Source of the DNA: Geodermatophilus obscurus
Lineage (GTDB): Bacteria > Actinomycetota > Actinomycetes > Mycobacteriales > Geodermatophilaceae
Assembly: GCF_900115395.1 (NCBI RefSeq)
Contig: NZ_FOWE01000002.1
Coordinates: 372,001 to 436,000 of the forward strand
Length of the DNA: 64,000 nt
Reading direction: 5' to 3'
Shown here: positions 13,329-62,414 of the stretch, in pieces
How the letters are laid out: each line of letters starts with the position of its first letter
Numbering within the stretch: position 1 is the stretch's first letter
The notes under the pieces: generated by a model
What the model saw: the letters and a program-made list of their open reading frames with translations, nothing else
The model's database searches: none
What the model was told of the DNA's origin: nothing
Translations under genes and position numbers: made by a program

Positions 13329-13380
13329 CCGGAGCCCGGACCAGGGGCCCGACCGGGGCCTGACCAGGGCCCTGACTAGG
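13326..13380. repeat. Degenerate short tandem repeats between convergent genes
   Basis: About five decayed copies of a 10-13-nt unit, consensus like TGACCNGGGCCC, fill the gap between cutA and the oxidoreductase gene. Successive copies begin near 13326, 13339, 13351, 13361 and 13373. The last copy supplies the TAG stop of the minus-strand gene. Likely slippage-born; could also form GC-rich hairpins. Confidence 0.5.
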
Positions 13381-15815: not shown

Positions 15816-15950
15816 GCCGGGCGGCCCCGCGAGCCGTCGGTCACACGGGGCCGGGGTTCCGATCGCGATCACCCTGGGTAGGGGGCGGAGATCGGGAAGA
15901 AGGGCCGGTGCGTCCCGGCGCGGACCGGCCGTCGTGCGGTCCCGGGCAGG

Positions 15951-23533: not shown

Positions 23534-24538
23534 GTGTCCGACGTGCCCGGCCTGCCCGACGGCCTCACCGCCCGCCCGCTCACCCTCGACGACGCCGACG
23601 CCGCCGCCGAGCTCCTCGAGGCGGCCGAGGCCGTCGACGACACCGGGGAGCACGAGGACGCCGACGACCTGACCGAGTGGTGGGGCCGCGAGCTGGTCGA
23701 CCTGCCGCACGACGGGCGCGCGGTGGTGACCGCCGACGGCCGGCTGGTCGGCTGGGCGACCTCCATCGACAACCGCGGCGCCCGCGACGCGCACCGCATC
23801 TGGTCGGAGGGGCGCGTGCACCCCGGCCGGCGCGGGCAGGGCGTCGGCCGCGCGCTGCTGGCCTGGCAGGTGCGGCGCGGGGCCGAGCAGCACGCCGCGC
23901 ACCGCCCTGACATGCCCGGACGCCTGGTGGCGGCCGTCTACCCGGCGATGACCTCGGCCGCCCGCCTGCTGGAGCGCGCCGGCTTCGAGGTGGAGCGCTA
24001 CTACAACGCGATGGAGCGCCCACTCGACGACGTCCCCACCGTCCGGGCCGTGCCGGGGGTGGACCTGGTGCCCTTCACGTGGGACCGCGACGACGAGATC
24101 CGCCGGGCGCACAACGCGGCCTTCACCGCCCACCACGGCTCCAGCGAGCGCGACGAGCTGGCCTGGCGCAGCTGGTTCACCGGGCAGAAGGCGTTCCGGC
24201 CCGAGTTGTCGGTGCTGGCCTTGGCCGACGGCGCCGTGGCCGGCTACGTCCTCGCCTACGTCTACGACGCCGACACCCGCGCGACCGGCGTCCGGACCAC
24301 GCAGCTGGGGCAGATCGGCGTGCTGCCGGCGGCCCGCGGGCGCGGGGTGGCGACGGCGGCCATCGCCGCCGCCCTGGACGCCGCGGCGCGCGGGGGCTGC
24401 GGGCGGGCTGCCCTCGACGTCGACACGGAGAACTCCACCGGCGCGCTGGCGCTCTACGAGCGGGTGGGCTTCCGCACCACCCGCGTGCGCACCGCCTGGG
24501 CCAAGGCGCTGCCGCCGGTGACCGCCGCGGGCCGGTAG
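23534..24538 (+). CDS. Tandem GNAT acetyltransferase
   Basis: Two fused GCN5-related acetyltransferase domains, 334 residues. The first shows the acetyl-CoA loop VHPGRRGQGVGRALL at about 95-110. The second shows IGVLPAARGRGVATAAIAAALDAA at about 258-280, followed by LDVDTENSTGALALYERVGF. This layout resembles mycothiol synthase and other two-domain actinobacterial GNATs, but no specific match to MshD could be established. The GTG start follows a TAACCT box with 8-nt spacing. TAG stop. Confidence 0.88.
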   Translation: MSDVPGLPDGLTARPLTLDDADAAAELLEAAEAVDDTGEHEDADDLTEWWGRELVDLPHDGRAVVTADGRLVGWATSIDNRGARDAHRIWSEGRVHPGRRGQGVGRALLAWQVRRGAEQHAAHRPDMPGRLVAAVYPAMTSAARLLERAGFEVERYYNAMERPLDDVPTVRAVPGVDLVPFTWDRDDEIRRAHNAAFTAHHGSSERDELAWRSWFTGQKAFRPELSVLALADGAVAGYVLAYVYDADTRATGVRTTQLGQIGVLPAARGRGVATAAIAAALDAAARGGCGRAALDVDTENSTGALALYERVGFRTTRVRTAWAKALPPVTAAGR

Positions 24539-27398: not shown

Positions 27399-28541
27399 AT
27401 GGCCGACCGCCGCCTCGCGCCCCTCACCGCCCTGTCCACCCTCGGCCGCCGGCCGCGTCCGCCGGTGCTGCGTCCCGCGCCGCCCGTGGCACCGCCCCCC
27501 GCGCAGACACCGCGGCCGCCGCGGCTGATCGACAACGCCGTCTACGCCGGCGGACGGCGCATCGCGACCCCGCCGTCGGCCGGCGAGAGCCACGACTGGC
27601 TGACCGAGGGCTTCGACGACCGCATGGTGTGGCTGGGCCTCTACCGGCCCGAGCCCGCCGAGCTGGGGGAGATCGCCGAGCAGTACGAGCTGCCCGACCT
27701 CGCCGTCGAGGACGCCATCCAGGCCCACCAGCGGCCGAAGTTCGAGCGCTACGGCGACACGCTGTTCGTCGTCCTCAAGGCCGCGCGCTACCTCGACGCG
27801 GCCGAGGAGGTCGAGTTCGGGGAGCTGCACCTGTTCCTCGGCCGGCAGTTCGCCATCACCGTGCGGCACGCCGAGTCACCCGACCTCGCCCGGGTGCGGC
27901 GGCGGCTCGAGAGCGAGCCCGCGCTGCTGGCCAAGGGGAGCGAGGCGGTGCTGTACGCGATCCTCGACGCCGTCGTCGACGGGTACTCGCCGGTGGTCGC
28001 GGGCCTGGCCAACGACATCGACGAGATCGAGACCGAGGTCTTCCGCGGGGACCCCGGCGTCTCCCGGCGCATCTACGAGCTGTCGCAGGAGGTGCTGGAG
28101 TTCCAGCGGGCCGCGCAGCCGCTGACCGGCATCCTCGCCGCCATCACCGCCGGGTTCGACAAGTACGGCGTCGACGAGGAGCTGCGCAGCTACCTGCGCG
28201 ACGTCGCCGACCACGTCACGCAGGTCATCGAGCGCATCGAGGCGTTCCGGCTGCAGCTGCGCGACATCCTCACCGTCAACGCGACGCTGGTCGCGCAGCG
28301 GCAGAACGACGAGATCCGCGAGCTCACCGAGGCCTCGATCGCGCAGGGCGAGGAGGTCAAGAAGATCTCCGCGTGGGCGGCCATCCTCTTCGCGCCGACC
28401 CTCGTGGGCACGGTGTACGGGATGAACTTCGAGCACATGCCGGAGCTGGACTGGCGGTTCGGCTACCCCATGGCCGTGGTGCTCATGTTCGGCGTCAGCC
28501 TCGTGCTCTACGCCATCTTCAAGCGCCGCGACTGGATCTAG
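27399..28541 (+). CDS. corA: CorA-family magnesium/cobalt transporter
   Basis: A pentameric divalent-metal channel, 380 residues. The N-terminal about 50 residues are proline-rich and extra to the core. The cytoplasmic domain follows and ends in a long helix. Two C-terminal membrane helices surround the signature YGMNFEHMPEL, the selectivity loop between them. The very C-terminus is basic (FKRRDWI), as usual. TAG stop followed at once by the hairpin element at 28545. The 248 bp upstream shows no M-box riboswitch that I could recognise. Confidence 0.93.
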   Translation: MADRRLAPLTALSTLGRRPRPPVLRPAPPVAPPPAQTPRPPRLIDNAVYAGGRRIATPPSAGESHDWLTEGFDDRMVWLGLYRPEPAELGEIAEQYELPDLAVEDAIQAHQRPKFERYGDTLFVVLKAARYLDAAEEVEFGELHLFLGRQFAITVRHAESPDLARVRRRLESEPALLAKGSEAVLYAILDAVVDGYSPVVAGLANDIDEIETEVFRGDPGVSRRIYELSQEVLEFQRAAQPLTGILAAITAGFDKYGVDEELRSYLRDVADHVTQVIERIEAFRLQLRDILTVNATLVAQRQNDEIRELTEASIAQGEEVKKISAWAAILFAPTLVGTVYGMNFEHMPELDWRFGYPMAVVLMFGVSLVLYAIFKRRDWI

Positions 28542-35331: not shown

Positions 35332-35856
35332 TCACCCCCTCGGCTGCGTGACGGCGGCGAGGACGGCGGGGTGGGCGTCGCGCGCGAGACGGCGCAGCTC
35401 GTCGTCGGTGCGGTCCTGGATCGGGTGCGGGACGAGGACGTGCGGGACCGCGAGGCCGAGCGCCCGTGACTGGGCGGCCGCGGCGCCGGCGAACTCGGTG
35501 GAGGCCAGGAACACCCCCACCACGCCCCGGGACTCGAGGTCGGCGATGTCGTGCACACTGCACGACGTGCACGAGCCCTAGTCGGCCAGTGCCTCGATGA
35601 CCACCTCGCAGTGGGTGGCGATCTCGTGCCGCAGGTCCACCGGCGCCGGGCGGGCGAAGGTGGGCTTGCGGTACCGCAGCGTGCGCACGCCGTCGGCCCG
35701 CAGCAGCGCCTCGAGCTCGTCGACGACGACGTCGCCGCGGCTCTTGGAGATGTCGAGCAGCCCGACGGTCAGCCCCTCCAGCGACAGCGGCCGCGGGGTC
35801 AGCGCCCGCGCGGCCGGCCGCAGCTCCGACGTCGGGTCGAGCAGCACGCGTCCCAT
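35332..35856 (-). CDS. UGSC-family selenoprotein with UAG-encoded selenocysteine (predicted)
   Basis: A 174-residue thiol/selenol protein of unknown function. The frame runs from ATG at 35856 to TGA at 35332-35334 and is interrupted only by codon 93, TAG at 35578-35580. The upstream part ends EVVIEALAD and the downstream part begins GSCTSCSVHDIADLESRGVV, so the amber codon falls exactly at the first residue of the UGSC motif, which is selenocysteine or cysteine in this family. Both halves have the same codon style and the fold continues (FLASTEFAGAAAAQSRALG, VPHPIQDRTDDELR), arguing against decay. A SECIS-like hairpin starts 11 nt after the codon. Reading UAG as Sec is inferred here; UAG-programmed Sec is, from memory, reported for Geodermatophilus and Blastococcus. 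The ATG overlaps the partner gene's stop by one base (TGATG). Confidence 0.88.
35548..35566 (-). promoter_or_regulatory. Candidate bacterial SECIS hairpin
   Basis: In the mRNA, 11 nt after the UAG, GUCGUGCA and UGCACGAC form a perfect 8-bp stem with loop GUG. This satisfies the known bacterial SECIS pattern: loop with G in the first two positions, stem of 4-16 bp, 16-37 nt from recoded codon to apical loop (here 19). A competing 8-bp stem, UCGUGCAC with GUGCACGA, has a 10-nt loop starting only 11 nt from the codon. Confidence 0.7.
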
Positions 35857-37286
35857 CAGGCCTCCTCGATCGGCACGGTGACCGGCGAGCTGCCGGTGGC
35901 CCCGCTGACCCAGCCGGGGACGACGGCGGAGAACATGCCCGCCGGGCCGCCGGCGTAGGCCAGCAGCAGCCCGCCGGGGCGGAACTTCGGCAGCGGGCGG
36001 TCGTCGAGGCCGGCCGGCATCCCCTCGGCGATGCCCATCGACCCCCGCCGCAGCTCGTCGGGCTGCAGCACGAGCAGCGGGTCGAGCTCGGCGAGCAGCC
36101 GCTCGCGGTCCCAACCGGCGTCCCGGAACACCCGCCCGTGCTCCGGGCTGAGCACCACGAGCGCGTCCATCGCCAGGGCGGCCTTGGGGTGGCCGACCGT
36201 GCGCAGCACCAGCGCGAGCGTGCGGGCCAGCGACTCCGGTGTCCGGCTGGCCTGGTCGAGGACCGGGACGAGGCCGGAGCCGGCGAAGACGGTGAGCGCG
36301 GAGCCGGGGACGCCGCGCGCCTCGGACAGGAGCGGGAAGGGGCGCCGCCCGTCCTCGGCCTCGGCGAGGCACCAGCCGACCTTCCCCGGGTTGCCCAGCG
36401 TGGCGCGGTCGACCTCCCCGGGGCGCCCGCCGCCGACGTTGCGGACGACGAGCTGCAGCGCCCGGCCGATCGTGGCATTGGCGCGGTCGCCCTGGCCGAG
36501 GACGTTGACGCCGGAGTTCATCCGCAGCCGGGCGGTGACCGGCCCGCCGACGACGAGCACCGGCCCGGCCGACCAGGTGGTGGCCAGCACGCCGTGCAGC
36601 GCGAACTCGTCGCGGCAGGCCGCCTCCACCGCGGCCAGCACCACCGGCAGGTGCTCGGGCAGGCACCCGGCGAGGACGGCGTTGACCGCCACCTTCTCGA
36701 CCGTGCACTCCACCAGGTCGGGCGGGACGACGGCGACCACCTCGTCCGGCGCCCGCCGGGTGCCGGCCAGCATGCGCAGCACCCGCTCCTCGGTGGGCGG
36801 CACGCAGGGCAGCCCGTCGCTCCAGCCCCGGGCGAACACCGCCTCGACGTCGTCCTCGAGGTCGGCCAGCTCGACGCGCCGGGCGGCGAGCACCCGACCG
36901 CCGTAGCGCCGGTCCAGCTCCTCCTCGACCCCCCACTCGACGCTGCGCGACCCGCAGCCGGGCCGGTGCTCGGGCAGCCCGTCGCCGAGGTCGCGGACGC
37001 CGGTGAAGGCCTCCCAGGCGCCGCGCAGCCAGCCCTCGACCCGGCCGGTCTCCGTGCCGCCGGCCAGGCGCAGCAGCGTGGGCACCGTCTCGATCCGCAG
37101 CCGCCAGCTGACCTCGAGCTCGCGGTCGTCGACCACCGGCAGCCCGCCGGGGAAGTCCGGGTCGTCCTGGCTGACCACGGTGAGCGGTCCGGCCCCGGCC
37201 AGCTGCCGCAGCACCGGCTCGACGAGGGTGCACGTCGGGCAGTCGTGCTTGACCACCGCGACCAGCCCGTCCGGGACCGTCGTCAT
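35856..37286 (-). CDS. Thioredoxin-fused partner of the UGSC selenoprotein
   Basis: A 476-residue protein with two parts. Residues 1-90 form a thioredoxin-like domain with a CPTC redox motif at 16-19 (KHDCPTCTLVEPVL) and the cis-proline segment ETVPTLLRL. The rest is a large domain with the block FARGWSDGLPCVPPTEERVLRMLAGT, then VEKVAVNAVLAGCLPEHLPV and RANATIGRALQLVVRNVGG, the pattern of proteins found beside UGSC proteins in other bacteria. Function unknown; the fusion suggests electron transfer to the selenol or thiol of the partner. ATG 37286 is assumed; ATG 37298 is equally possible and neither has a well-spaced ribosome site. Its stop overlaps the selenoprotein ATG. Confidence 0.82.
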   Translation of the reverse strand: MTTVPDGLVAVVKHDCPTCTLVEPVLRQLAGAGPLTVVSQDDPDFPGGLPVVDDRELEVSWRLRIETVPTLLRLAGGTETGRVEGWLRGAWEAFTGVRDLGDGLPEHRPGCGSRSVEWGVEEELDRRYGGRVLAARRVELADLEDDVEAVFARGWSDGLPCVPPTEERVLRMLAGTRRAPDEVVAVVPPDLVECTVEKVAVNAVLAGCLPEHLPVVLAAVEAACRDEFALHGVLATTWSAGPVLVVGGPVTARLRMNSGVNVLGQGDRANATIGRALQLVVRNVGGGRPGEVDRATLGNPGKVGWCLAEAEDGRRPFPLLSEARGVPGSALTVFAGSGLVPVLDQASRTPESLARTLALVLRTVGHPKAALAMDALVVLSPEHGRVFRDAGWDRERLLAELDPLLVLQPDELRRGSMGIAEGMPAGLDDRPLPKFRPGGLLLAYAGGPAGMFSAVVPGWVSGATGSSPVTVPIEEA

Positions 37287-37396
37287 GCTCCCGACCATGG
37301 CAGCCGCGTCAACCGGCCGGGGCCGAGGTGGCTCGCGGCCCCACGGTCGGCCAGAGTGACCCCGGCCACCCACCCGAGACGAGGGGACCCGCCGTG

Positions 37397-38795: not shown

Positions 38796-39848
38796 CTACG
38801 CGCGCGCGAGCTGGCCGCTGGGCCCGTGCGAGCGGACCACGACCAGCACGTCCTCGCTCTGCAGCGTGCCGATCAGCGGGTCGTCGAAGCGCAGCGTGCG
38901 CCCGCCGCGGGTGACCGACAGGACGATGTCGCGCAGGTCGCGCGGGCCCAGGCCGACCTCGCCGGACGTCACCGGGCGCTGGGAGAGGTCGAGCCCCTGC
39001 CCGCCGGTGAGCAGGTCCTCCACGACGGAGACCACCCGCGGGCTGTCGGTGGACAGGCCCAGCAGCCGGCCGGACGTCGCCGAGGTGGTGATGACGGTGT
39101 CGGCGCCGGACTGCCGCAGCAGGCTGGCGTTCTCCTCCTCGCGGACGCTGGTGGTGATCGGGACGCTCGGGTTGAGCTGGCGCACCGTCAGGGTGATGAG
39201 CACCGCGGCGTCGTCGCGGTTGGCCGCCACGATCACCGCCCGCGCCCGCTCCACGTGGGCCCGGCGCAGCACGTCGGTGCGCCCGGCGTCGCCCACGATG
39301 CCGGTCAGGCCGATGGAGTTGGCCTCGTCGATGGCGCGCTGGTCGTTGTCGACGATGACGATGCTGTCGAGCGGGGTGCCGGTGGCTTGCAGCGACCGGA
39401 CGGCGCTGCGCCCCTTGGTTCCGTAGCCGCACACGATGACGTGCTGGCGCACGCGGGACCTCCAGCGTCGGATGCGGAACTCCTCGCGTGAGCGCGCGGT
39501 GAGCGCCTCGAGGGTCGTCCCGATGAGCACGATCAGGAACATGACGCGCAGCGGCGTGATGAACAGGATGTTCACCAGCCGCGCGGTCTCGGTGATGGGC
39601 GTGATGTCGCCGTAGCCCGTGGTCGACAGCGTGACCGTGGAGTAGTAGATCGCGTCGACCAGCGTGATGCCGACCTCGTCGCCGTCGCGGTAGGAGTCGC
39701 GGTCGATCCAGACGATGAACACGGTCAGCGCGAGGAAGAACGCCGCGAGCAGCACCCGGCGCATCACCTGCCGGACGGGGGTGGGCTCCTCGTGGGCGAT
39801 CCGGACCCCGGTGTGCGGGTCCTCCGCCGTGCCGTGTCCGCCGATCAC
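38796..39848 (-). CDS. Two-helix potassium channel with TrkA-N domain
   Basis: A 350-residue ligand-gated K+ channel-like protein. Two membrane helices (about 25-45 and 80-105) flank the selectivity filter TLSTTGYGDITP. A RCK/TrkA-N Rossmann domain follows with VIVCGYGTKGRSAVRSL (GxGxxG) and the acidic IVDNDQRA, then a TrkA-C-like domain with GLGPRDLRDIVLSV. The gating ligand is probably a nucleotide or Ca2+, unproven. The GTG at 39848 is chosen because TATCGT ends 7 nt upstream on this strand; the frame is open further upstream but without start signals. TAG stop. Confidence 0.9.
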   Translation of the reverse strand: MIGGHGTAEDPHTGVRIAHEEPTPVRQVMRRVLLAAFFLALTVFIVWIDRDSYRDGDEVGITLVDAIYYSTVTLSTTGYGDITPITETARLVNILFITPLRVMFLIVLIGTTLEALTARSREEFRIRRWRSRVRQHVIVCGYGTKGRSAVRSLQATGTPLDSIVIVDNDQRAIDEANSIGLTGIVGDAGRTDVLRRAHVERARAVIVAANRDDAAVLITLTVRQLNPSVPITTSVREEENASLLRQSGADTVITTSATSGRLLGLSTDSPRVVSVVEDLLTGGQGLDLSQRPVTSGEVGLGPRDLRDIVLSVTRGGRTLRFDDPLIGTLQSEDVLVVVRSHGPSGQLARA

Positions 39849-48917: not shown

Positions 48918-51383
48918 CTACACGGCGGCGATGGCGGCGACCGGGGCGGTGCGGGCGGCGCGGCGGGCCGGCAGCACCGAGGCCAGCAGCCCGGCGACGG
49001 TGGCGACGACGACGATCGCCGCCACCTGCAGCCACGGCACGTCGAGCACCACCTCGCCCTGCCCGCCGAGCACCGACGCCGTCCCGATCAGCCCGTACCC
49101 GCCGCCGAGCAGGACGCCCAGCACCGCGGCGACCCCGGCCACGAGCACCGCCTCCCACGCCAGCAGCCCGCGCAGCTGGCCGCGCGTGAGACCCAGCGCC
49201 CGCAGCAGGCCGTTCTCCTGGCGCCGCTCGACCACCGACAGGGCGAGGGTGTTGCCCACGCCGATCAGCGCGATAACCACCGCGACGCCGAGCAGGCCGG
49301 TGACCACCAGCAGCAGCACGTCGAGCACCGAGTCGATCGCGGCCCGCTCGCTGGCCAGGCCGGTGACGTAGGCGCCGGGGGCCGCGGCGCCGGTCAGCTC
49401 GGTCACCTCGTCGATGGCGGCCCGCTGCCCGTCCCCGTCGGCCAGCCGCAGCCACAGCGTCGCCGGGGGCGCGTCGGGGACCAAGCCCCGCAGGTCGGCG
49501 CCGTGGAGCATCGGCGCGGTGGCGTCCCCTCCGACGACGGCGGTGAGCGTGCGGCTGTTCGCGCCGGCCGTGAGCGTCACCGGGTCGCCGGCCCGCACCG
49601 CCCAGGCGTCGGCGGCCCACTGCGGCAGCACCACCTCGCCGAGGGCCGGCAGCGGGAGGTCCGCCGTGCTGCGCAGCACCCCGGTGGCGTCCGCCGGGTC
49701 CACGCCCTGCGACCAGACGGGCCGGCCGTCGGGGCCGGTGAGGTCGGCACCGGTGAGCGCCGTCCCGGCGACGACGCCGTCGACGTCCTCCAGCCGCGGG
49801 AGCAGCGCCGTCGGCAGCTCGCCGTAGGCCCCGACCTCGACGTCGGCCGGGTAGGCGGCGTCCAGGCCGGCCTGCGCGGTGGCCCGGGTGGAGGCCGCAC
49901 CCACCACCATGGCGGTGGTCAGCGTGACGCCGATGAGCAGCGCGGTCGCCGTCGCCGCCGTCCGGCGCGGGTTGCGGGTCGCGTTGCCGGCGGCGAGCCG
50001 GCCCGGCAGCCCGCCGACGCGGCCCAAGGTCCGCCCGGCGGCGGACACCACCGGCGGCACCGCCCGCTGTGCGAGCAGCACGACGCCGAGGAAGCTCGCC
50101 GCGCCGCCGGCGAGGGACGGGTACACGTCGGCCGTGGCGACACCGAGCGCCATGAGCCCGGCGCCGCCGAGGACCAGGACCAGCCCGGTGACGAACCGCG
50201 CCAGGCCGCCCCGGCTGCGCAGCGGCGGCGCGTCCTGCGGGCGCAGCGCGGCCAGCGGCGCGACCCGTGTGGCCGCCCGCGCCGGCCCGAGGGCCGCGAG
50301 CAGCGTCGTCAGCGTGCCGACCGCCAGCCCCGCGCCGACCGCGTACAGCGGCACCGAGACGCCCTCGAGCGGCAGCGGCGAGTCGGGACCGACCAGCGCG
50401 GAGACGAGCGCGGCCAGCCCGATGCCGGCACCCACGCCGATCGCCGACGCGGCCAGCCCGGTGACCGCGGCCTCGGCGATCACGCTGCGCCGGACCTGCC
50501 GGGAGGTGGCGCCGACGCAGCGCAGCAGCGCCAGGTCGCGGGTGCGCTGGGCGACGAGCACGGCGAGCGTGTTGGCGATGACCAGCCCGGCCACCAGCAC
50601 CGCGACGGTCGCGAAGACCAGCAGGACGGCGGCGAGCGCGAGCCGGTTGCCGGTCATGGCGGCAACGGCGTCCTCGGCGGCCTGCTCGCCGGTGCGCACC
50701 TCGACGGCGGGGAGGCCCGGTGCCGCCGCCACCTGCTCCGCGAGGAGCCCGGGCTCCGTGCCCGGCTCGCCGGCGACCCGCAGCTCGGTCGGCTCGGCCG
50801 CACCCCAGGCGGTCACCTGCTCGGGGACGGCGAACCCGCGGGCGAACACCCCGGCGGAGGGGTCCCCGCCGAGGTCGACCAGGCCGGTGACGGTCGCCTC
50901 ACCGGTGGTGGCGACCACACCGGTGGCGGGGTCGTAGACGGTCACGGCCACGACGTCGCCCACGGCCGCCTCGGTCGTCGTCGCGAGCGCGACCTCACCG
51001 GGCCGGCCGGGGAGGGCGCCGTCGGCGACCTGCTGCCAGCGCAGCTCCGGGTCGGTGGCGATCGACTGCACCGACAGGTAGGCCTCGGAGCGGCCGGGGA
51101 GGGCGGCCTGGACGTCGGCGGCCGCGCTGGGGTCGACGGCGCGGACGCCGGGGACGGCCGCGACGGCGTCGACGGCGCCGGCCAGCGAGGAGCCGTCGGT
51201 CGTGGTCACGACGACGTCGGTGCCGACGTACTGGGCGCCCGCGGCGCGCAGCAGGGTGGCGCGGGAGGTCTCGTTGAGCACCAGCGTCGCCACGACGAAG
51301 GCGACCGCGATGACGACGGCCAGCGTGGCGGCGACCAGCCGGGGCAGGTGCGCGCGCAGGCCGGCCAGGGTGGTGGACAGCAC
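48918..51383 (-). CDS. FtsX-like ABC transporter permease (MacB type)
   Basis: An 821-residue permease with two FtsX domains: helix at about 15-37, extracytoplasmic domain, helix bundle at about 240-360 with the block RTRDLALLRCVGATSRQVRRSV, second bundle, second extracytoplasmic domain and closing helices with VVERRQENGLLRALGLTRGQLRGLL. These repeats of the L-x-x-L-G-x-x coupling helix mark the family. GTG start, 4 bp after the ATPase stop. TAG stop. Likely exports a small molecule or peptide; two-component genes lie upstream in the same direction. Confidence 0.88.
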   Translation of the reverse strand: MLSTTLAGLRAHLPRLVAATLAVVIAVAFVVATLVLNETSRATLLRAAGAQYVGTDVVVTTTDGSSLAGAVDAVAAVPGVRAVDPSAAADVQAALPGRSEAYLSVQSIATDPELRWQQVADGALPGRPGEVALATTTEAAVGDVVAVTVYDPATGVVATTGEATVTGLVDLGGDPSAGVFARGFAVPEQVTAWGAAEPTELRVAGEPGTEPGLLAEQVAAAPGLPAVEVRTGEQAAEDAVAAMTGNRLALAAVLLVFATVAVLVAGLVIANTLAVLVAQRTRDLALLRCVGATSRQVRRSVIAEAAVTGLAASAIGVGAGIGLAALVSALVGPDSPLPLEGVSVPLYAVGAGLAVGTLTTLLAALGPARAATRVAPLAALRPQDAPPLRSRGGLARFVTGLVLVLGGAGLMALGVATADVYPSLAGGAASFLGVVLLAQRAVPPVVSAAGRTLGRVGGLPGRLAAGNATRNPRRTAATATALLIGVTLTTAMVVGAASTRATAQAGLDAAYPADVEVGAYGELPTALLPRLEDVDGVVAGTALTGADLTGPDGRPVWSQGVDPADATGVLRSTADLPLPALGEVVLPQWAADAWAVRAGDPVTLTAGANSRTLTAVVGGDATAPMLHGADLRGLVPDAPPATLWLRLADGDGQRAAIDEVTELTGAAAPGAYVTGLASERAAIDSVLDVLLLVVTGLLGVAVVIALIGVGNTLALSVVERRQENGLLRALGLTRGQLRGLLAWEAVLVAGVAAVLGVLLGGGYGLIGTASVLGGQGEVVLDVPWLQVAAIVVVATVAGLLASVLPARRAARTAPVAAIAAV

Positions 51384-61406: not shown

Positions 61407-62414
61407 CTAGGCCGGCGGTGCCTGCGGGCGGCCGGCCCGGAGGCTGCGCTCGAGGTCGGCGGCGTCGGCTGCGTCCGGCGCGTGCAGCCGCCGCTCGTCC
61501 TCGGCCAGCCGCGCGGCCTCGGCGGCCAGGGCGTCGGCCGACTCCTGCGCCCGGTCCTTGCGGAACTGGCTGTAGGAGTGGGCGACCGCGGCGGCCCAGA
61601 CCAGGTAGATCGCCGCGTAGACGGCGTAGCGGACGGGGTCGGAGGCGTCGATCCAGTCGCTGCGCAGCAGGGTGCGGGTGTTGGTCAGCACGATGATCCC
61701 GCCGACCAGCGAGCCGAGCAGGCGCGGCGGCACGTGCCGGACCAGCCAGGCGGCCAGCGGTGCGGCGACCAGGCCGCCGAGGAGGAGGGCGGCGACCCAG
61801 GCGAAGTCGATGCCCTGCGAGCCGAGCGCGAGGAGGAACCCGAGGCTGGCCGACAGGGCGACCAGGAACTCGGAGGTGTCGATGGAGCCGATCACCTTGC
61901 GCGGCTCCATGCGGCCGCTGGCCAGCAGCGCCGGGGTGCCGACCGGCCCCCAGCCGCCGCCGCCGGTGGCGTCGACGAAGCCGGCCACCAGGCCGAGGGG
62001 CCCGAGGAACCGCTTGCGGACCGGCTTGCCGAGGTTGCGGCGGTCGATGCCGCGGAGGGTGAAGCGGACCAGCAGGTACACGCCGAGCGACAGCAGGATC
62101 AGCGACATCACCGGCGCGGCGACCTCGGTGGAGAGGGTGGACAGCACGGTCGCGCCGGCGAAGGCACCGACCGCGCCGGGCACGCCGACCCTGGCGACGA
62201 CCTTCCAGTCGACGTTGCCGAACTTCCAGTGCGACAGGCCCGACGCCAGCGTCGTGCCGATCTCCGCGAGGTGGATGGTCGCCGAGGCGGCGGCCGGGTT
62301 GGTGCCGATGGCCAGCAGCAGCGTCGTCGAGGTGACGCCGTAGGCCATGCCGAGACTGCCGTCGACGAGTTGGGCGCCGAGTCCGGCGAGGGCGAGCAGG
62401 ATCAGGGTCTTCAC
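61407..62414 (-). CDS. TauE/SafE-family sulfite/anion exporter
   Basis: An integral membrane exporter of sulfite or organosulfonate-type anions, 335 residues with about eight to nine helices and a soluble charged C-terminus. The N-terminal half has LVDGSLGMAYGVTSTTLL and the second half the repeat GFVDATGGGGWGPVGTPALLA, the inverted repeat pair of this family. GTG at 62414 has GGAG 8 nt upstream. TAG stop. A short cysteine-containing leader peptide frame (62508-62591) lies 93 nt upstream, suggesting that expression follows cysteine or sulfur supply. Confidence 0.9.
   Translation of the reverse strand: MKTLILLALAGLGAQLVDGSLGMAYGVTSTTLLLAIGTNPAAASATIHLAEIGTTLASGLSHWKFGNVDWKVVARVGVPGAVGAFAGATVLSTLSTEVAAPVMSLILLSLGVYLLVRFTLRGIDRRNLGKPVRKRFLGPLGLVAGFVDATGGGGWGPVGTPALLASGRMEPRKVIGSIDTSEFLVALSASLGFLLALGSQGIDFAWVAALLLGGLVAAPLAAWLVRHVPPRLLGSLVGGIIVLTNTRTLLRSDWIDASDPVRYAVYAAIYLVWAAAVAHSYSQFRKDRAQESADALAAEAARLAEDERRLHAPDAADAADLERSLRAGRPQAPPA

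Follow-up and report, generated by a model that had tools for sequence, protein, structure and literature searches.

In the Geodermatophilaceae, the tRNA for selenocysteine (tRNA-Sec) carries the anticodon CUA according to a passage of PMC5330540, in which Mukai 2016 is cited for the formate dehydrogenases and the UGSC-motif genes and AhpC from Blastococcus saxobsidens is added. A passage of PMC5133445 has Blastococcus specify selenocysteine (Sec) by UAG, and the use of UAG in some species is mentioned in passages of PMC8124441 and PMC10778597. Nothing relevant to UAG-encoded Sec in this family was found in the excerpts of PMC7609411 and PMC5009743. The UGSC family is treated in parts of PMC13188914 and of PMC2398784, the Global Ocean Sampling survey of 2008, where a thioredoxin-like fold was thought likely for it. 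UAG-encoded Sec is already known for the Geodermatophilaceae, UGSC genes included, and the locus described here is one more example. A preliminary description of this DNA had mentioned such use in Geodermatophilus and Blastococcus, in agreement with the passages of PMC5330540 and PMC5133445.

A UGSC-Family Gene Interrupted by UAG

The window is the whole stretch of 64,000 nucleotides of Geodermatophilus obscurus that was analyzed. Three of its features concern the UGSC-family gene.

35332..35856, minus strand: UGSC-family selenoprotein gene, as proposed (NF041046, 141.4 bits; PF24696, 138.4 bits)
35578..35580, minus strand: proposed selenocysteine codon, TAG, codon 93 (same column in 110 loci: 39 TAG, 63 TGA, 8 TGC)
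35548..35566, minus strand: proposed SECIS hairpin, 8-bp stem GUCGUGCA / UGCACGAC with a GUG loop (pair conservation, silent-site invariance)

The frame runs from 35856 to 35332 and comprises 174 codons, with an ATG start and TGA as the natural stop; its strand, minus, was missing from the preliminary description. The sole internal stop is the TAG at 35580-35578, in the context EALAD-[TAG]-GSCTSCSVHD. The score against the UGSC_fam model NF041046 was obtained for the whole protein with the TAG residue scored as C and exceeds the curated cut-off of 125 bits, and a six-frame search with the same model gave 134 bits for this gene. The Pfam UGSC score likewise applies to the protein with the TAG residue written as C. 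The feature of NF041046 in which Sec or Cys is followed by GSC is found here as TAG-GSC. The columns of C93 and C96 are invariant in an alignment of 46 chosen UGSC sequences in which U was written as C. Among the best 80 of 317 relatives, the closest named protein is that of Geodermatophilus amargosae, which is 91% identical over residues 1-170 and thus past codon 93.

Seven neighboring genes in the window end in a plain TAG: an ABC ATPase at 15908 (called ftsE previously), a GNAT protein at 23534, CorA at 27399, an MDR protein at 13376, a K+ channel at 38796, an FtsX-like permease at 48918, and TauE at 61407. All seven are recognized by Pfam and are those named in the preliminary description, whose proposal of a dual use of UAG they bear out. 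UAG therefore has two meanings in this genome, with context choosing between them. A rough GC3-based caller gave 47 open reading frames in the window, of which 37 end in TGA, 9 in TAG (2 of these without a Pfam match), and 1 in TAA.

Conservation of the Codon among Relatives

Each of the 110 aligned UGSC loci has TAG, TGA, or TGC at the Sec site. The 110 loci combine named loci with loci from genomes of the family, so that the same genome may be present twice. The 80 named loci are the best 80 of the 317 relatives; TAG is present in all 17 from Geodermatophilus or Blastococcus and TGA in the remaining 63. All 21 loci of this type from the family genomes, and the distant paralogue L018, have TAG as well; some genomes occur in both the named and the family set. 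Such agreement goes beyond chance. This alignment of the joined frame and the frame itself agree with the preliminary claim of a single TAG at the Sec/Cys site of the family and a natural TGA stop; the close relatives keep TAG, and neither a different stop codon nor a frameshift was seen at the site in those loci. The observation of a UAG-interrupted UGSC gene is confirmed, and its interpretation as a Sec codon is supported by these sequences.

Across 112 genomes of the family, 95 UGSC rows were tallied by hand in 54 genomes. In 72 of them the matched frame contains exactly one TAG and is otherwise free of stops; 23 have no stop and none has TGA. The loci were read for 30 of the 95 rows. Among the 23 stop-free rows 14 were read, and all of these have Cys (the 8 TGC loci and L165-L170). 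The distant Cys-type paralogues L010-L017, from genera g1 and g9, are without the hairpin in all eight loci read, and in several genomes two such copies lie about 3-12 kb apart.

Formate dehydrogenase is a second TAG gene of the source genome, with TAG at its Sec site (ARI-TAG-HSATVPGLGASFGRG), so that both this enzyme and the UGSC protein have TAG at Sec sites. A hand tally took in the listed rows that cover residue 140 at an identity of 73% or more. Exactly one TAG was found in 118 of 118 such rows, from 98 of the 112 genomes, and the surrounding motif could be read in all 30 loci examined. Fragments missing residue 140 fall outside this count; among them, 1 TGA was seen in a fragment from G079, a genome in which both copies are represented by fragmentary rows.

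Selenocysteine Genes of the Source Genome

The whole source genome was searched (4.96 Mb in 22 contigs, with an estimated completeness of 99.99%). Eight matches to tRNA-Sec were obtained, of which one, at G000:C7:83990-84081, lies above the Rfam cut-off with 65.4 bits and is aligned by the Rfam model from end to end. ARAGORN assigns the anticodon CUA to this gene and labels it tRNA-Pyl. None of the eight matches is a second tRNA-Sec with UCA above the Rfam cut-off. The tRNA gene lies within a cluster in the order selB-selA-tRNA-selD, in which selA (TIGR00474, 403 bits) adjoins the tRNA and selB and selD scored 272.9 and 390.2 bits. The long tRNA-Sec with anticodon CUA and the genes selA, selB, and selD, for which a search had been suggested, are all present in this genome. 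In a search for AhpC-TSA proteins, 8 matches were obtained in the source genome, and one of these is a partial match with 1 TAG (G000:C4:19719-19925).

Putative SECIS Hairpin

The proposed hairpin, GUCGUGCA-GUG-UGCACGAC, starts 14 bases after the T of the TAG codon. Stem pairs were counted by script over distinct sequences, leaving out L018 and the 8 Cys loci. The full set of 8 pairs is intact in every one of the 26 distinct TAG sequences, among which that of the window is counted, and in 51 of the 62 distinct TGA sequences. The only stem changes within the TAG set are from G-C to G-U. Among the 11 TGA sequences with a stem that is not intact, 10 break one stem pair and one other breaks two others.

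Silent sites are also conserved. For codons whose amino acid is conserved among TAG users, the codon itself is invariant at 6 of 7 positions in the hairpin and at 22 of 81 elsewhere (Fisher p 0.004); among TGA users the corresponding values are 5 of 6 and 0 of 56 (p 9e-7). This test takes codons as independent, though the sequences are related. At the apex of the hairpin, Ser is encoded by AGT in all 26 distinct TAG sequences, although this codon accounts for 1.9% of the Ser codons used across the window. Against shuffled versions, the single sequence has only a slight advantage in folding (z of -2.54, and -1.29 for a slightly shifted window). Of the 9 open reading frames that end in TAG, the 7 recognized by Pfam served for comparison; the ordinary TAG-ended gene TauE gave a z of -5.19, with a terminator-like hairpin. 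The case for a SECIS element rests on conservation and not on folding energy.

The hairpin is common, nearly letter for letter and with its silent bases, to UAG users and to UGA users outside the family. UAG and UGA users share one hairpin, and the SelB target would therefore have stayed while codon and anticodon changed. Within the family, codon and anticodon (UCA to CUA) appear to have changed with the putative SECIS unchanged.

Proposed Mechanism and Alternatives

The favored reading is that a UGSC-family selenoprotein is made, with UAG codon 93 recoded as Sec by means of the CUA tRNA and the hairpin; a probability of about 0.94 is assigned to it. The elements read directly from the DNA are the frame, the position and conservation of the UAG, the anticodon of the tRNA, selA, selB, and selD, and the conserved RNA hairpin. 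The steps that follow are modeled on established knowledge of bacterial Sec systems, from which tRNA charging, SelB binding, and the presence of Sec in the protein would be expected. SelA would convert Ser-tRNA-Sec(CUA) to Sec-tRNA, with SelD supplying the selenophosphate. SelB would carry the Sec-tRNA and bind the predicted hairpin just 3' of the UAG, where Sec insertion would outrun release factor 1 at codon 93 only. A UAG without the hairpin would continue to end other genes. One particular UAG "stop" is very probably read as Sec by this Geodermatophilus.

An in-frame stop in one assembly could also be a mutation or an error, and the TAG would then be a nonsense codon in a pseudogene or a misread base. 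This explanation is given practically no weight in view of the 72 family rows with the same stop and no other, the presence of TAG at this position in 17 named species or strains, and the conservation that runs on behind the stop at 91% identity to G. amargosae (residues 1-170). Insertion of pyrrolysine or another amino acid by a suppressor tRNA is highly improbable as well. It would fit the tRNA-Pyl label given by ARAGORN to the CUA tRNA and the candidate list in a passage of the 2013 pyrrolysine survey, which includes Geodermatophilus obscurus (PMC3639795); against it stand the end-to-end match of the Rfam tRNA-Sec model to this tRNA at 65.4 bits, the clustering of the tRNA with selA, selB, and selD, and the fact that in two known selenoprotein families the UAG occupies the Sec/Cys site.

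Recoding competes with termination in SelB systems, and this competition would allow two products, in which a short UAG-ended form has a separate function and the supply of selenium regulates readthrough. Nothing specific speaks against this arrangement, which is considered improbable; the short form would miss the UxxC motif.

The Upstream Partner Gene

The gene directly upstream overlaps the UGSC gene at its stop and start (TGATG).

35856..37373, minus strand: partner gene P0002

The P0002 protein begins with a thioredoxin-like domain that contains CPTC, followed by PGCGS and by a large C-terminal domain for which no Pfam or NCBIfam match was found. At 104 of the 110 loci the UGSC gene is accompanied by an adjacent homologue, in some cases as a partial match; none was found at the other 6 (L083, L085, L086, L092, L097, and L131). 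Partners of this type adjoin UGSC genes in records labeled with several phyla. An alignment of 38 chosen sequences, from which L093, with a stop near its start, and L119 were left out, shows no variation at C45, C48, and C140 when the U of L144 is counted as C.

In a metagenome-assembled genome (MAG) labeled Acidimicrobiales (L144:1535-2980, plus strand), a TGA stands exactly at the C140 codon of the partner, in PGCGS. In this one case the partner looks like a selenoprotein itself. P0002 was also considered as a second UAG selenoprotein, and a stop occurs in three rows (TGA in G068; TAG in G032 and G004). The stops of G032 and G004 lie outside the aligned part and that of G068 at the poorly aligned first edge, and they were therefore not taken as Sec sites.

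The AlphaFold model of the UGSC protein has a pLDDT of 93.2. The solved folds that fit it best (TM-scores mostly 0.4-0.5) are flavodoxins, TIR domains, and lumazine synthases, and the best E value in the search of solved structures was 0.1. Thioredoxins are absent from the 50 rows listed. The model of the partner has a pLDDT of 81.4, and its N-terminal part resembles thioredoxins by fold; thioredoxins are among the matches, none at an E value of 0.001 or better. The UGSC protein and P0002 are likely a redox pair.

Anticodon Boundary in the Family

A tRNA-Sec gene was found in 108 of the 112 family genomes at an E value of 1e-9, and the four genomes without one are 72-82% complete. All 110 genes were read for the anticodon, which is CUA in 102 (from 101 genomes) and UCA in 8. 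The UCA genes are in seven genomes of the sister genera g5-g7 (G066, G068, G069, G070, G072, G073, and G074) and in G058. The seven genomes (L250-L256) are fragmented, with 190-550 contigs each. For G070, G072, G073, and G074, selA and selB lie a few kb from the UCA gene and are 57-68% identical to those of the source genome; with these genes near the UCA tRNA in 4 of 7 genomes, the switch seems to have happened in place. A UGA Sec gene was not found in g5-g7, nor were formate dehydrogenase rows at an E value of 1e-20, and the use of UGA for Sec there is therefore suggested by the anticodon alone. The three genera have three UGSC rows, of which L165 and L166 were read as Cys; the partial row G066:C15:11224 lies outside the reading.

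A tree of 30 TAG and 19 TGA UGSC rows requires two codon changes, which are forced by the starred branches, because L074 (TGA, from a MAG labeled Frankiales) falls among the TAG rows. A single origin of TAG in the UGSC genes was considered: one change suffices in only 1% of 200 bootstrap trees, and the AU test does not reject one TAG clade (p 0.235); either one or two changes may hold. The TGA rows nearest to the TAG set are L071, the sister row, from a MAG with a Frankiaceae label, and L074, inside the set. A search of the short stretches of L071 and L074 gave no tRNA.

A Strain with Two tRNA-Sec Genes

Geodermatophilus sp. LHW52908 (G058) has a second tRNA-Sec in addition to the CUA gene.

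L162:1169-1263, minus strand: second tRNA-Sec of G058, anticodon UCA (anticodon read)
L162:1579-2157, plus strand: TGA-interrupted AhpD-like frame of G058, CFY-TGA (TIGR01926 match)

The order on contig C17 is a transposase-associated gene, the tRNA-Sec(UCA), and the TGA-interrupted frame. The frame matches the peroxidase-related model TIGR01926 above its cut-off and the model AhpD_rel_CFYUT below its cut-off; the U in the latter name is read here as marking the same site as CFY-TGA. Of the 78 homologous rows in the family, no other contains a stop, and the hairpin behind the TGA of this frame is weak (z of -0.63). At 31-34 kb, C17 gives an 82% match to another Geodermatophilus. A second selA, selB, or selD was not seen in the first 36 kb of C17; the usual sel cluster of the strain lies on C11.

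At an E value of 1e-25, the AhpD-like gene was found in 0 of 394 genomes of the class in a search run without a positive control, and one pattern scan of viral contigs gave no relatives. On plasmids, 327 records were obtained for the AhpD-like gene and 7 for UGSC, all with less than 60% identity. Plasmids of Arthrobacter and Tsukamurella (L299 and L300), one of them typed as conjugative, have selB-selA-tRNA-Sec(UCA)-selD clusters that adjoin nrfD. UGA-type sel clusters are present on plasmids, and sel genes therefore travel.

On balance, with odds a little better than even, the Sec codon of this family may have been swapped from UGA to UAG in place, at one and the same tRNA gene close to selA and selB and with the SECIS untouched, and may still be changing. 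LHW52908 would then have taken in a UCA tRNA-Sec and a UGA-containing AhpD-like gene among transposase genes, with one set of SelA, SelB, and SelD serving two Sec codons.

Comparison with Known Systems

The passages of the open-access literature that were found make no mention of UCA genera in the Geodermatophilaceae or of a strain with two tRNA-Sec types, which is no proof of novelty. Within those passages, the seven UCA genomes of three sister genera and the one Geodermatophilus with both types are the findings not described. The family-wide boundary and this strain are the parts worth following, and with them the sequence of steps in a natural change of the code could be tested. The comparison supports a view of the Sec codon as changeable, with exchange of codon and anticodon possible while the putative hairpin of SelB stays. 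For annotation, treating UAG always as a stop would split the UGSC gene described here, the formate dehydrogenase, and related genes across most genomes of the family.

The locus resembles the Geodermatophilaceae UAG-Sec system of Mukai 2016, as cited in the passage of PMC5330540, in its family, its tRNA-Sec with anticodon CUA, and the use of UAG in formate dehydrogenase and UGSC-motif genes. It comes from another genome of the genus, and no difference from the system in that passage was found. With the UGSC selenoprotein family (NF041046, PF24696), it shares the sequence family and the UxxC motif, with TAG here instead of TGA. The predicted fold has flavodoxins, TIR domains, and lumazine synthases among its best matches, with no thioredoxin in the 50 rows listed; a thioredoxin-like fold was thought likely in the passage of PMC2398784. 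The canonical bacterial UGA system is alike in selA, selB, selD, the long tRNA-Sec, and a hairpin right behind the codon. Here, in contrast, the anticodon is CUA and the codon is UAG, and the competitor would therefore be release factor 1.
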